From: Methylotenera sp.
GTDB taxonomy: Bacteria > Pseudomonadota > Gammaproteobacteria > Burkholderiales > Methylophilaceae
Length of the DNA stretch: 32,368 bases
NCBI GenBank assembly: GCA_014378845.1
Contig: JACMNB010000061.1
Span: forward strand, 1 to 32,368
Reading direction: 5' to 3'
Below, one piece after another: positions 17,939 through 21,888 of the stretch. The position numbers and the translations under genes are program-made. How positions within the stretch are numbered: position 1 is the stretch's first letter; each line of letters starts with the position of its first letter. Under the pieces are notes generated by a model. The model did no database searches. It had not been told where the DNA came from and saw nothing but the letters and a program-made list of their open reading frames with translations.

Positions 17939-17970
17939 AAAAGTAGTCATATTGCAACTACTTTTGGGGA
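17939..17970 (+). promoter_or_regulatory. Hairpin touching the ribosome-binding site of the dynamin-like gene
   Basis: AAAAGTAG (17939-17946) and CTACTTTT (17958-17965) form a perfect 8-bp stem with an 11-nt loop. The SD sequence GGGGA (17966-17970) begins at the very next base, 5 nt before the ATG at 17976. A leader hairpin that abuts the SD could modulate translation, but the stem is AT-rich and weak, so this is only suggestive. The SD is what decides the start against the upstream TTG at 17952, which lies in the loop. Confidence 0.5.
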
Positions 17971-17975
17971 AACAT

Positions 17976-19934
17976 ATGGCAGAAAATAAATTAGCACATC
18001 AATTTGCAGCTTACTCTGAATGGCGTAAAGCATTGGTGGACAGTATTTGCGATTATCGCAGCTGGCTCAACGAGCAAGAGCTGAACGACGCGCAGATAGA
18101 CCAACGCATCACCAATTTGCTTGAACGCTTGCGCGAAGATAAGCTAAACGTGGCTTTTGTGGCAGAGTTTTCACGCGGTAAATCGGAGCTCATTAACGCG
18201 ATTTTCTTTGCCGATTATGGTCAACGTTTGCTGCCATCATCTGCAGGTCGCACCACCATGTGTCCAACCGAATTATTGTACGACCCAGCCAAGCCAACGG
18301 CCATCTCGATGTTGCCGATTGACACGCGCTCGTCTGATGCCACCACCACCGAATACAAGCGCTATCCTGACGAGTGGCATACCGTGCCTTTTAACGTAGA
18401 CAACAATGAAAGCATGATTGCGGCGTTTAAAGAAGTGAGTAGCACCAAGCGCGTAACTACCGAAGAAGCTGAAAAATACGGTTTGTATGATCCTAACAAC
18501 TCAGACGATGCGATGAGCTTAAACAAAGACGGCAGTATTGATATTCCTTGTTGGCGTTATGCCATGATTAACTTTCCACATCCTTTGTTAGAACAAGGCT
18601 TGGTGATTTTAGATACGCCAGGCTTAAATGCGATTGGTACCGAGCCTGAATTAACGCTGAACATGCTGCCAAACGCGCATGCAGTGCTGTTTATTTTGGC
18701 GGCCGATACGGGCGTAACTAAATCTGAAATTGATGTATGGCGCCAATATATTAGCGGCACGCGTTGGAAGCAAAAAGGTCGCTTGGCGGTACTCAATAAA
18801 ATTGACGGCCTGTGGGACGAGCTGAAAAACGAAGCAGAAATTGAAAAAGAGATTAACAAGCAAATTAAAACCAGTGCAGAGTTGTTGGGTTTAGAAACCA
18901 ATCAAATCTTCCCAACATCTGCGCAAAAAGGCTTGTTAGCTAAAATTAATGGCGATGATGCATTATTAGCGCAAAGCCGTTTGCCAGAGCTTGAAAAAGC
19001 GCTGTCTGATGAGCTAATTCCATCCAAAAAAGAAATCGTCCGCGATAACACTAAAAACGAGATTGAAGACTTAATCGGCAACTCAAACATGATTTTGGAT
19101 TCTCGCGTGGCTGGCGTGGTTGAGCAGCTTGAAGAGCTGAAAGGCCTGCGCGGCAAAAACGAAGACGTGGTTGAACACATGATGAACAAAGTGAAGGTAG
19201 ATAAAGAAAACTTTGAAAAAGGTTTACAACGCTTTCAAGCGCTACGCAGCGTTTTCTCGCAGCAAACCAATAAATTGTTTACTTTATTGGGCATGGAGGC
19301 GCTAAAAATGCAAGTGCATAACACGCGTGAAGCCATGTTAAAAGCCAATTTTACCAAAACGATTCGTGATGCAATGGATCACTTTTTTGCAGAGCAAAAA
19401 GGTCGTTTAGTGCAATCAGATGCACAAATCGACGAAATTAAAAAAATGATGGACGTGATGTACGATAAGTTCAGTAAAGAGCACGGCTTGCGTAAATCGG
19501 AGCCGCCTGCGTTTTCAACTTTGCGGTATCAAAAAGAGTTAGCCAAGCTTGAGCGTGCGTATAAAGAGCAATTTAACACCGCATTTAATATGATTGCTAA
19601 CGAGAAAATGACGTTAACCACCAAGTTTTTTGAGACATTGGCCAGCCGCGTGATTCATGTGTATGAAGTGGCAAACCGTGATGTAGAAAATTGGTTAAAA
19701 GCGGTAATCGCCCCTATGGAATCGCAAGTGCGCGAGCACCAATTGCAATTACGCCGCCGTTTAGAGAGCATTAAACGCATCTACAAAGCAACGGACACGC
19801 TGGAAGACCGTATTTTAGAACTGGAAAATATCGAGAAAAGCATTCGTGCACAAATGGCCGATTTGCAAATTTTGCGTCAACACATGGGAAATGCTTTGGA
19901 TTTTGAAAGCGAACCAATTGAAATGGCCGCCTAA
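17976..19934 (+). CDS. Bacterial dynamin-like GTPase
   Basis: 652 aa. GTPase-domain motifs are visible: P-loop AEFSRGKS (63-70, with Ala where Gly is usual), switch-I threonines T93/T94 in GRTTMCPTE, G3 DTPG (213-216) and G4 NKID (274-277). About 110 residues separate G2 and G3, a long insertion. After the G domain come long charged helices (about 350-640) with coiled-coil character, the stalk-like region of dynamin-family proteins. No membrane-spanning segment is seen, so membrane contact, if any, would be peripheral. Bacterial dynamin-like proteins remodel or protect membranes (family knowledge); the role of this one is unknown. The start is supported by the SD GGGGA. It is a single gene, convergent with rpoH, with a terminator between. 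Confidence 0.85.
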   Translation: MAENKLAHQFAAYSEWRKALVDSICDYRSWLNEQELNDAQIDQRITNLLERLREDKLNVAFVAEFSRGKSELINAIFFADYGQRLLPSSAGRTTMCPTELLYDPAKPTAISMLPIDTRSSDATTTEYKRYPDEWHTVPFNVDNNESMIAAFKEVSSTKRVTTEEAEKYGLYDPNNSDDAMSLNKDGSIDIPCWRYAMINFPHPLLEQGLVILDTPGLNAIGTEPELTLNMLPNAHAVLFILAADTGVTKSEIDVWRQYISGTRWKQKGRLAVLNKIDGLWDELKNEAEIEKEINKQIKTSAELLGLETNQIFPTSAQKGLLAKINGDDALLAQSRLPELEKALSDELIPSKKEIVRDNTKNEIEDLIGNSNMILDSRVAGVVEQLEELKGLRGKNEDVVEHMMNKVKVDKENFEKGLQRFQALRSVFSQQTNKLFTLLGMEALKMQVHNTREAMLKANFTKTIRDAMDHFFAEQKGRLVQSDAQIDEIKKMMDVMYDKFSKEHGLRKSEPPAFSTLRYQKELAKLERAYKEQFNTAFNMIANEKMTLTTKFFETLASRVIHVYEVANRDVENWLKAVIAPMESQVREHQLQLRRRLESIKRIYKATDTLEDRILELENIEKSIRAQMADLQILRQHMGNALDFESEPIEMAA

Positions 19935-20012: not shown

Positions 20013-20870
20013 TTATGCAGTTGCCAGCATTAAACCTTTAATCTTTTGCATGGCTTTTTGCTCAATTTGGCGAATGCGCTCGGCAGAAACGCTAAATTCT
20101 GCGGCTAAATCGTGTAGCGTTAACGTTGCATTTTCAGTTAACCAACGCGCTTCCAGCACACGGCGGCTGCGTTCGTCTAAACTTTCCAGCGCTTTACTTA
20201 AACCAAGCGCTTGTGCTTTACCTGCTTGTTTCATTTCCAAATGTGTTGATGGCTCAGGACTTTCATCTTCTAAATAAGCAATTGGGCTAAAACTTTCATC
20301 GCCGTCATCGTCAATATGCGCGTCCAGCGAGATTTCATGACCGTTTAAGCGATATTCCATCTCCATAACTTCTTCTGGTTTTACATTGAGTTCGCGCGCG
20401 ATGCGTTTTACTTCATCGGGATGCAACGTTTCGTGGCCATTTTTCATGCTACGCAAATTAAAGAAAAGCTTACGCTGCGCTTTAGTAGTCGCGGTTTTGA
20501 CTAAACGCCAATTGCGCACAATATATTCGTTCATCTCGGCCTTAATCCAATGCATTGCGAATGAAACTAAACGCACACCGCGATCTGGGTCAAAGCGTTT
20601 GACTGCTTTCATTAGCCCAATATTACCTTCTTGAATTAAATCTGATTGTGGTAAACCGTAGCCCAAGTAGCCACGCGCGATGCTCACAACCAGCCTTAAA
20701 TGCGAAACTATCAGTTGTTGCGCGGCTTCTAAGTCATTATCATTTTTTAGGCGCGTGCCTAAATCGCGCTCTTCCTCTGCCGTTAGCAGCGGGAAAGCCT
20801 TAATGGCGCGCATGTATTGATCAAAACTATCTAATGAGCCAATTGACGGTATTGTTAAAGCGTTTATGAT
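20013..20870 (-). CDS. rpoH: Heat-shock sigma factor RpoH (sigma-32) with a non-canonical start
   Basis: 285 aa if started at ATC 20870 (E. coli 284). It directs RNA polymerase to heat-shock promoters. Regions are visible: 2.1-2.2 with HLRLVVSIARGYLGYGLPQSDLIQEGNIGLMKAVKRFDP, 2.3-2.4 with RLVSFAMHWIKAEMNEYIVRNWRLVKTATTKAQRKLFFNLR (including the RpoH box) and 4.2 with TLHDLAAEFSVSAERIRQIEQKAMQKIKGL. The first ATG is at 20813, but the 19 codons before it encode SIGSLDSFDQ, which aligns with VGNLDSYI of E. coli sigma-32. An AGGAG SD at 20875-20879 precedes ATC ATA AAC. An in-frame TAA at 20886-20888 and the lack of any ATG/GTG/TTG/CTG until 20813 leave ATC or ATA as the start. A CIRCE operator lies just upstream. 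Confidence 0.95.
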   Translation of the reverse strand: MINALTIPSIGSLDSFDQYMRAIKAFPLLTAEEERDLGTRLKNDNDLEAAQQLIVSHLRLVVSIARGYLGYGLPQSDLIQEGNIGLMKAVKRFDPDRGVRLVSFAMHWIKAEMNEYIVRNWRLVKTATTKAQRKLFFNLRSMKNGHETLHPDEVKRIARELNVKPEEVMEMEYRLNGHEISLDAHIDDDGDESFSPIAYLEDESPEPSTHLEMKQAGKAQALGLSKALESLDERSRRVLEARWLTENATLTLHDLAAEFSVSAERIRQIEQKAMQKIKGLMLATA

Positions 20871-20903
20871 GAAGCTCCTAAAAAATTATCAGCGAATCTT
20901 ATT

Positions 20904-20930
20904 TTAGCACTCTCAGTTGGAGAGTGCTAG
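20904..20930 (-). promoter_or_regulatory. CIRCE element (HrcA operator) upstream of rpoH
   Basis: TTAGCACTC (20904-20912), a spacer of exactly 9 bp and GAGTGCTAG (20922-20930) match the CIRCE consensus TTAGCACTC-N9-GAGTGCTAA at 17 of 18 positions. On the minus strand its right arm runs into TGCTAAAAT, an extended -10-like sequence, so bound HrcA would cover the rpoH promoter. HrcA is the CIRCE-binding heat-shock repressor (established); the hrcA gene itself is not in the window. Confidence 0.92.
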
Positions 20931-20988
20931 ATGCAAAAAGTTTCAAACCAGTAAATGTTTGTAACAGTGTATTGCAATCTGAGCTAAT

Positions 20989-21888
20989 TTAGGTTTGAGA
21001 GGAAGACTTAGAAACAGCAAAATAGGCAGCGATTACCCCCAGCAATAAAGCCAGTGCGCAGATGATTAAACTAACTGAAAAGTTAGGCAATCGCAGTGCA
21101 AAATTGGTTTGATAGTCCGCCACCAACGGTGCAAGCGCTTGATTAAGCTGAGTGATTACAGCCGCTGTAATCGCAAGTGCAAATAACCCGCCCAGCAAAC
21201 CATACAATGCGCCCGCATACAAAAATGGCCGCCGAATAAAGCTTTTAGTTGCGCCAATCAGTTGACTTAAGTTAATCTCGGCTTGCTGCGTTAAAATCTG
21301 CATGCGAATGGTATTGCCAATCACCGCTACAATCGCAAAAGCCAACAAAGCCGCCACAATCGTTAGCGCGCTTTGGCCAAGTGCTAGCAGCGCATTTAAG
21401 CGTTTTAACCACGCGCCATTCACAATGACTTCATCTACGCCGTCCAGCTTGCTTAATATGCTTTTTAGGGTTGCAATCGATGCGTTATCTAATTGTTTTG
21501 GTTCAATTAAAAAAGCATCTGGTAGCGGATTTTTTTCTAGTGAATTCAATATGTCTTTATTGGTATCGGCGGCTTGCAAATCCTTTAACGCATCATCTTT
21601 GCTGATAAATTTAAAGCGTTTGATTTGGTCTTCTTTATTTAGAGCGCTGGAAATGTTGGCAACCAAGCCGTCATCATGGTTTAAAGCCAAAAAAACACTG
21701 ATTTGCGATTCACTTTTTACATTGCTGACCAGACCATTTGCGCTATCAAGCACCGCATATAATAGGCTTGGCAGGGCAACTGTCACGCCAATTGCAAGGC
21801 AAATAAGTAGCGTACTTAGCATATTTGTTTTAAAGCGGCTCAGCACCAGTTTCAGCGTCTGCGCATGCTGATATAGCCAAGCGTTCAA
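20989..21888 (-). CDS. ftsX: Cell-division ABC transporter-like permease FtsX
   Basis: 299 aa. Four membrane segments are visible: about 21-45 (NMLSTLLICLAIGVTVALPSLLYAV), 170-192, 219-245 and 268-290, with a large periplasmic loop between the first and second. That loop (about 50-165) has the FtsX ECD pattern QISVFLALNHDDGLVANISSALNKEDQIKRFKFISKDDALKDL and the repeated LSKLDGVDEVIVNGAWLKRLNALL. FtsEX in the inner membrane controls septal peptidoglycan hydrolases through periplasmic partners (established). It overlaps ftsE by 4 nt, so they are coupled. The rpoH gene follows. Confidence 0.96.
   Translation of the reverse strand: MNAWLYQHAQTLKLVLSRFKTNMLSTLLICLAIGVTVALPSLLYAVLDSANGLVSNVKSESQISVFLALNHDDGLVANISSALNKEDQIKRFKFISKDDALKDLQAADTNKDILNSLEKNPLPDAFLIEPKQLDNASIATLKSILSKLDGVDEVIVNGAWLKRLNALLALGQSALTIVAALLAFAIVAVIGNTIRMQILTQQAEINLSQLIGATKSFIRRPFLYAGALYGLLGGLFALAITAAVITQLNQALAPLVADYQTNFALRLPNFSVSLIICALALLLGVIAAYFAVSKSSSQT

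Follow-up and report, generated by a model that had tools for sequence, protein, structure and literature searches.

The rpoH gene of Methylotenera sp., which encodes the heat-shock sigma factor sigma-32, is closely preceded by a CIRCE element, the predicted binding site of the repressor HrcA. The site lies in a stretch of 32,368 nucleotides (referred to here as the window) and its position upstream of rpoH is confirmed. It overlaps two predicted promoters, one of sigma-E (ECF) type and one sigma-70-like with an extended -10 element. We consider it probable, at a little under 80%, that HrcA bound at CIRCE represses both sigma-E- and sigma-70-driven transcription of rpoH, and that HrcA and RpoH thereby form a feed-forward loop with groESL.

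The CIRCE site and the rpoH gene of the window

The operator occupies positions 20904..20930 and, being a palindrome, is given no strand. Its sequence, TTAGCACTC-N9-GAGTGCTAG, matches the consensus TTAGCACTC-N9-GAGTGCTAA at 17 of 18 positions with a spacer of exactly 9 bp; read on the minus strand from 20930 to 20904 it is CTAGCACTC-TCCAACTGA-GAGTGCTAA, one letter from the CIRCE consensus. This is the only match with three or fewer mismatches in the window, and none was found in 100 dinucleotide shuffles of the window. A sequence-only reading of the same DNA had proposed a CIRCE with this score and spacer ahead of rpoH, and the pattern scan bears it out.

The gene downstream (20013..20867, minus strand, 284 aa) is identified as rpoH by profile matches to TIGR02392 (E 2.3e-117, 391.5 bits against a cut-off of 323.1) and NF005143 (E 4.1e-122, 407.1 bits against a cut-off of 241). 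Inspection of the sequence places a Shine-Dalgarno motif, AGGAG, at 20875..20879 (minus), and 7 nt past it stands ATA (20865..20867, minus), which from the sequence and a comparison within the genus is the predicted, non-AUG, initiator. The window rpoH has no in-frame ATG, GTG or TTG upstream of the ATG at residue 19; a start at this ATG, at 20813, was rejected, as the conserved coding sequence reaches 20867. Because the initiator at the proper spacing from the Shine-Dalgarno motif is the ATA at 20865-20867, the gap between CIRCE and rpoH is 36 bp. The close spacing noted in the sequence-only reading therefore stands, with its figure of 34 bp to the coding region corrected. Upstream of rpoH are ftsX (20989..21888, minus, assigned by profile search), ftsE and ftsY, and the order ftsE-ftsX-rpoH is common to the window and E. 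coli K-12. An open reading frame of 660 aa on the plus strand (17952-19934) gave a weak dynamin-like match to LeoA/HP0731 (E 2e-4), far under the cut-off.

The repressor is encoded in the same genome (2.26 Mb), where an intact open reading frame of 364 aa matches the HrcA family PF01628 with 228 bits (E 1e-67); the absence of hrcA, which the sequence-only reading had said would count against HrcA control, is thus not what was found. CIRCE matches with up to three mismatches occur in three places in the genome, at rpoH, at groES (contig C55, 76 bp ahead of the groES start) and at the end of contig C16. The last is identical to the groES site over its 27 bases and is taken as an assembly copy of it. 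A reversed-pattern control gave one match in this genome. No CIRCE was found at hrcA itself with the same three-mismatch pattern. The hrcA gene (L117 3870-4739, contig C65) stands alone and does not head a grpE-dnaK-dnaJ cluster; the gene divergent from it is presumably nadK-like. The genome also encodes RpoE (TIGR02939, E 2.4e-90, over the cut-off).

Conservation of CIRCE at rpoH and its loss with hrcA

CIRCE is present in 149 of 150 family genomes, with two sites in 122 of them, three in 8 and one in 19. We further took the best 80 of 590 candidate stretches coding for RpoH relatives in named genomes, a set whose titles include Methylophilus, Aromatoleum, Cupriavidus, Achromobacter, Variovorax, Janthinobacterium and Nitrosomonas. 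All of these 80 rpoH loci have a CIRCE matching at 14-18 of 18 positions, 25-204 bp ahead of the match, and in 78 of the best 80 (of 590) it matches at 16 or more; the spacer letters and the distance to the gene vary from locus to locus. The conservation in relatives for which the sequence-only reading had called is therefore found both at these best-matching loci and throughout the family.

When the downstream genes were assigned for 67 distinct sites from the window's own genome, its family and its order (73 rows less 6 fetched twice), 38 lay ahead of groES, 27 ahead of rpoH and 2 ahead of neither. In the wider class, 70 sites from 33 genomes comprised 30 at groES, 28 at rpoH, 10 at hrcA and 2 at neither; 27 of the 33 genomes had a site at rpoH and 6 gave none, these 33 having been drawn from the top of a list of the 209 genomes that gave a match, with part of their sites fetched and two of the genomes belonging to the window's order. 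An oddity of the window's own genome or family was rejected on the basis of this class sample and of the 351 of 399 order genomes that carry CIRCE. By these sequence comparisons CIRCE at rpoH is the usual state of those order genomes examined that bear hrcA, and it occurs commonly across the class. One class locus (L281, G787:C27) has tandem CIRCE elements, matching at 17 and 16 of 18 positions and 34 bp apart, before a single rpoH, and genome G280 has three sites (L175, L176, L177), one at each of two groES copies and one at rpoH.

The presence of CIRCE follows that of its repressor. Among 399 order genomes, 344 have both hrcA and CIRCE, 8 have hrcA only, 7 have CIRCE only and 40 have neither, an association with a Fisher p of 1e-39 when kinship is ignored. 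The corresponding numbers for 274 class genomes are 196, 3, 13 and 62. For both tables the genome handles were sorted by hand from the listings, with genomes not listed with a match taken as the remainder, and, as in all our counts across genomes, relatives are treated as independent. CIRCE without a detected hrcA accordingly occurs in 7 of 47 order genomes and 13 of 75 class genomes, and 14 of these 20 assemblies are less than 90% complete. Six of the seven in the order are 78-86% complete, and the seventh, G343, is a complete genome whose single site lies elsewhere than at rpoH. In the class 8 of the 13 are less than 90% complete, and G551, G629, G662, G669 and G756 are 97-99% complete; G756 (98% complete, no hrcA detected) has CIRCE at rpoH. 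The converse state, hrcA only, is found in five order genomes that are less than 90% complete and in three others: G232, with merely a weak hrcA match (1.5e-10), G341, with a 15/18 site at rpoH slightly under the threshold, and G178, an unexplained exception that gave no rpoH match. Its class examples, G631, G668 and G793, are 96-99% complete and have no CIRCE.

The rpoH upstream regions of 56 genomes were then read directly; G178 and the hrcA-negative G272, G273, G356, G458 and G510, which gave no rpoH match, were excluded, and for G484 the upstream comprised only about 90 bases. CIRCE is lacking (at most 13 of 18 positions) in 38 of 42 upstreams from hrcA-negative order genomes and present in 13 of 14 from hrcA-positive kin, the exception being G232. 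The four hrcA-negative genomes that retain it (G200, G290, G389 and G496) are assemblies 83-86% complete, and their hrcA may simply be missing from the incomplete assembly. In f25/g98 and in f34/g57, two sets each drawn from a single genus, the rpoH CIRCE is lost in both hrcA-less genomes of the set and retained in the four hrcA-bearing ones that were read. CIRCE and hrcA thus tend to be lost together, which, with the conservation of the site, supports the prediction of the sequence-only reading that the sigma-32 gene is itself an HrcA target.

This behaviour also bears on whether the palindrome is a chance occurrence or a relic with no function at rpoH. The few complete genomes that retain CIRCE without a detected hrcA count in favour of this explanation. 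A chance palindrome was nevertheless rejected, given its absence from the shuffles and its conservation in relatives, and since all of the best 80 loci preserve the arms despite varying spacer letters and distance, and the site is mostly lost where hrcA is lost, we give either form of this explanation a negligible probability.

In sampled genomes of families f41, f44 and f20 (genera g43, g113, g139 and g169) rpoH is mostly kept and neither hrcA nor a CIRCE at rpoH was detected; RpoE was likewise not detected in the sampled genomes of f41 and of these f20 genera. Control of sigma-32 in those groups must differ. One rpoH match from f41 (G484:C192:18899-19684) contains three in-frame TAA codons.

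Promoter-like elements overlapping the operator

An alignment of rpoH upstream regions showed GGAACTT shortly upstream of CIRCE. The window has a predicted -35 element of sigma-E type, GAAACTT (20938..20944, minus, 6/7 to GGAACTT), and, 16 bp from it and within the CIRCE spacer, a predicted -10 of the same type, TCCAA (20917..20921, minus), assigned by motif. A second, sigma-70-like promoter is suggested by the extended -10-like TGCTAAAAT (20901..20909, minus), which consists of the CIRCE right arm followed by AAT and is assigned from the conservation of the letters NAT. The sequence-only reading had pointed out an extended -10-like element overlapping the right half-site, and it is indeed present; the sigma-E-type element over CIRCE had escaped that reading. 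A housekeeping -35 to accompany TGCTAAAAT was rejected on inspection, the hexamer at a spacing of 17 bp, TAGCAC, being a poor match, and TGCTAAAAT is therefore called no more than an extended -10.

We scanned for the ECF-type element as GGAACTT-N15..17-TCTAA, scoring 12 letters and counting scores of at least 10. The only check on the sigma-E consensus used, a GGAACTT -35 and a TCTAA-like -10 separated by N15-17, was that the scan found the element of E. coli. The window element, GAAACTT-N16-TCCAA, scores 10/12, its own -35 departing from the consensus. Scores of at least 10/12 were obtained for 59 of 81 rpoH upstreams (window included) against 31 of 1620 shuffles, a ratio that overstates the independent ECF signal, as the TC of the -10 is partly supplied by the CTC of CIRCE. 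In 62 of the 81 a spacer of 16 scores best. The -10 starts 7 bp inside CIRCE in 40 upstreams, 9 bp inside in 10, 11 bp inside in 5 and 5 bp before it in 6; these last six are of the Cupriavidus/Achromobacter type, and their -10, although it falls outside CIRCE, is likewise TCCAA, TCTAA, TCGAA or TCTTA. The score is below 10 in 22 of the 81 upstreams, in 9 of 27 class rpoH sites and in 6 of 14 hrcA-positive kin.

The -35 taken alone avoids the overlap of TC with CIRCE. We compared 105 rpoH and 37 groES sites, with the window's own site (L002), unclassified sites and sequence repeats omitted. GGAACTT, at 6/7 or better and 5-30 bp upstream of CIRCE, accompanies 74 of the 105 rpoH sites and 2 of the 37 groES sites, a contrast that is weak at 5/7 or better (94/105 against 28/37). 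The letters NAT directly 3' of CIRCE, which give TGCTAANAT, are found at 96 of 105 rpoH sites and at 2 of 37 groES sites. Among the class rpoH sites, counted without shuffles and with 2 of the 27 from the window's order, the ECF score reaches 10 in 18 of 27 and NAT is present in 22 of 27. GGAACTT and NAT as a general property of CIRCE sites was rejected, both being rare at groES (GGAACTT at 6/7 or better). Most groES sites instead follow CTTGAA...CCCTAT-like letters, seen by eye and unscored, which we take from the consensus to be sigma-32-like; the groES site of the window's own genome (L003) shows these letters only poorly.

Genomes that have lost hrcA offer a view of the promoter elements apart from the operator. 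In G182 and G398 CIRCE has decayed to 13/18 and 12/18, respectively, and GGAACTT-N16-TCATA and TGATAAAAT are retained; G437 has a perfect GGAACTT-N16-TCTAA together with TGTTAAAAT and no CIRCE. The ECF element is kept in G262 and G335 at scores of 10 and 9. Scores of at least 10 occur in 7 of the 42 hrcA-negative upstreams, two of which (G200 and G389) still have CIRCE. The comparison suggests that without hrcA the CIRCE decays while the promoter elements can persist, in a few lineages only. E. coli K-12 served as a control: the best match of the scan, TGAACTT-N16-TCTGA, lies 121 bp ahead of rpoH and is the element known as the sigma-E promoter P3. There is no CIRCE at E. coli K-12 rpoH (best 11/18), and hrcA was not detected in E. 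coli, a control genome positive for rpoH and rpoE.

These data were weighed against a scheme in which HrcA represses rpoH and transcription comes solely from a housekeeping promoter with the extended -10 TGCTAANAT, GGAACTT being an upstream contact or the site of another factor. In favour of such a scheme, TGCTAANAT is the more constant element at rpoH sites, and the ECF element scores low in many genomes, including hrcA-less ones with RpoE. Against it, GGAACTT holds a distance of 16-17 bp to TCNNA, the -10 of the Cupriavidus/Achromobacter type remains TCNNA-like even outside CIRCE, and the scan recovers the E. coli element known as P3. The ECF element also outlives HrcA in a few lineages. Its score reaches 10 in 13 of the 28 genomes whose RpoE match exceeds the cut-off and in 0 of the 22 in which none does (one of the 22, G201, lies just under the cut-off); this relation holds in one direction only, and the lineages are not independent. 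We therefore regard a housekeeping promoter acting alone as unlikely, and favour HrcA control of two overlapping promoters.

The promoter positions bear equally on a role for CIRCE in RNA, in which a 5' hairpin would govern how stable the rpoH mRNA is, in place of an operator. CIRCE is an inverted repeat close to the 5' end, and it affects mRNA stability in Bacillus groESL. The predicted starts of both promoters, however, lie inside or after CIRCE, so that the whole hairpin would be absent from the mRNA; CIRCE is mostly absent where hrcA is absent; and inspection of the alignment showed that common changes in one arm (CTAGCACTC or TTGGCACTC with GAGTGCTAA) are unbalanced in the other. We judge this explanation highly improbable, and the operator reading is retained in what follows.

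Proposed control of sigma-32 and related systems

From the operator, its pairing at groESL and rpoH, and the promoter-like elements, we infer HrcA binding, repression, the assignment of sigma factors to elements and the following dynamics. A sigma-E-type factor with RNA polymerase would use GAAACTT-N16-TCCAA (20944-20917); the extended -10 (20909-20901) would serve polymerase that carries the housekeeping sigma factor. HrcA on CIRCE (20930-20904) would cover the first -10 and overlap the second, blocking both. Unfolded protein occupying GroEL, or heat acting on HrcA, would release HrcA from CIRCE at groESL and rpoH alike. New RpoH would then switch on its regulon, including groESL through the sigma-32-like promoter beside its CIRCE, and the rise in GroE would restore HrcA and shut both groESL and rpoH. 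Envelope stress, acting through sigma-E, would raise rpoH only up to the limit set by HrcA. The titration step is proposed by analogy: an HrcA activity that depends on GroE and is lost with unfolded protein or heat has been described in other bacteria (PMC6032397).

HrcA would thus act above RpoH in a feed-forward loop that negative feedback closes. The sequence-only reading had placed the two circuits in series. Its placing of HrcA upstream of sigma-32 is supported, but not a purely serial wiring: groESL retains a CIRCE of its own beside a sigma-32-like promoter (recognised by eye), and the arrangement would therefore be a feed-forward loop.

The operator consensus, the spacer, the repressor family and the groESL member are shared with the HrcA/CIRCE regulon of Bacillus and others, which comprises groESL and hrcA-grpE-dnaK-dnaJ. 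The Methylotenera system differs in that a target is the gene for a heat-shock sigma factor, and in that the own-genome CIRCE loci are only rpoH and groES, with hrcA having none; in the wider class, by contrast with the window's genome, hrcA can carry CIRCE, as the 10 of 70 sites show. CIRCE upstream of rpoH is itself partly in print for another group. In the sections available of Rodionov et al. 2004 (PMC545781), a CIRCE is predicted in silico at -51 from the rpoH start of Geobacter sulfurreducens, with groESL described as the only constant member of the regulon, so that the same wiring, rpoH and groESL each with CIRCE, is indicated there. Those sections list G. sulfurreducens as the sole species with CIRCE at rpoH, and name neither an overlapped promoter element nor loss together with hrcA at rpoH. 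PMC545781 was the only report of CIRCE at rpoH found in the literature searched, and nothing in that literature described an HrcA operator that overlaps a sigma-E promoter of rpoH; the search covered mostly non-subscription papers, in part. Permina and Gelfand 2003 (cited in PMC545781 and PMC1978210), which by its title deals with beta-, gamma- and epsilon-proteobacteria, may include beta and gamma cases of CIRCE ahead of rpoH. Leyn et al. 2016 (PMC5343134) was considered as prior art and set aside, its main text containing neither HrcA nor rpoH. We would call new the composite of CIRCE with putative sigma-E-type and extended -10 elements, and its apparent fate without hrcA.

The textbook account of Gram-negative heat shock derives from E. 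coli, a species without HrcA. E. coli P3 shares with the window its position in ftsE-ftsX-rpoH and a sigma-E-type element; it differs in having no CIRCE and no hrcA, whereas in the window the predicted -10 is within the HrcA operator. As CIRCE stands at rpoH, apparently over an envelope-stress promoter, in most of the beta- and gammaproteobacterial relatives examined that still have HrcA, the E. coli circuit without HrcA looks like a later simplification. A wider proposal, for and against which we see even odds, is that the ancestral control of rpoH in the Gammaproteobacteria in the GTDB sense (beta and gamma) consisted of a sigma-E promoter whose -10 is covered by an HrcA operator, plus an extended -10, and gated rpoH so that envelope stress could raise it only during a shortage of cytoplasmic GroE; P3 of E. 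coli would be the remnant after loss of hrcA and CIRCE, and the non-AUG initiator of the window's genus would be a third brake on sigma-32 synthesis. If the proposed control is correct, HrcA would set the level of sigma-32 in many hrcA-bearing beta- and gammaproteobacteria, a GroE-sensing repressor would stand above a sigma factor controlled by DnaK and FtsH, and stress in the envelope would converge with folding stress in the cytoplasm on one stretch of 50 bp. The natural absences of hrcA, two of them beside hrcA-bearing genomes of the same genus, make the proposal testable without first making mutants.

The gene infC has a non-AUG start, which the rpoH start of the window's genus resembles, and by analogy the synthesis of sigma-32 could conceivably be under an IF3-type control. 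Among the 13 genus genomes whose rpoH 5' end could be read, the window's included, the initiator is AUA in 11 and AUU in 2, and one of the 13 (L307) additionally has an upstream in-frame TTG; G077, in which the match is truncated, and G101, which has none, gave no reading. Five loci of the survey (L285, L286, L294, L297 and L307) were read by eye, and L290 was not correctly read. ATG is the initiator in 20 of 23 genera read, and g24 has GTG. In genus g20 all three fetched genomes have AUC, two of them (L309 and L310) also with in-frame upstream starts, and the named loci L035-L039, three of which are Methylophilus, have AUA, AUU or AUC.
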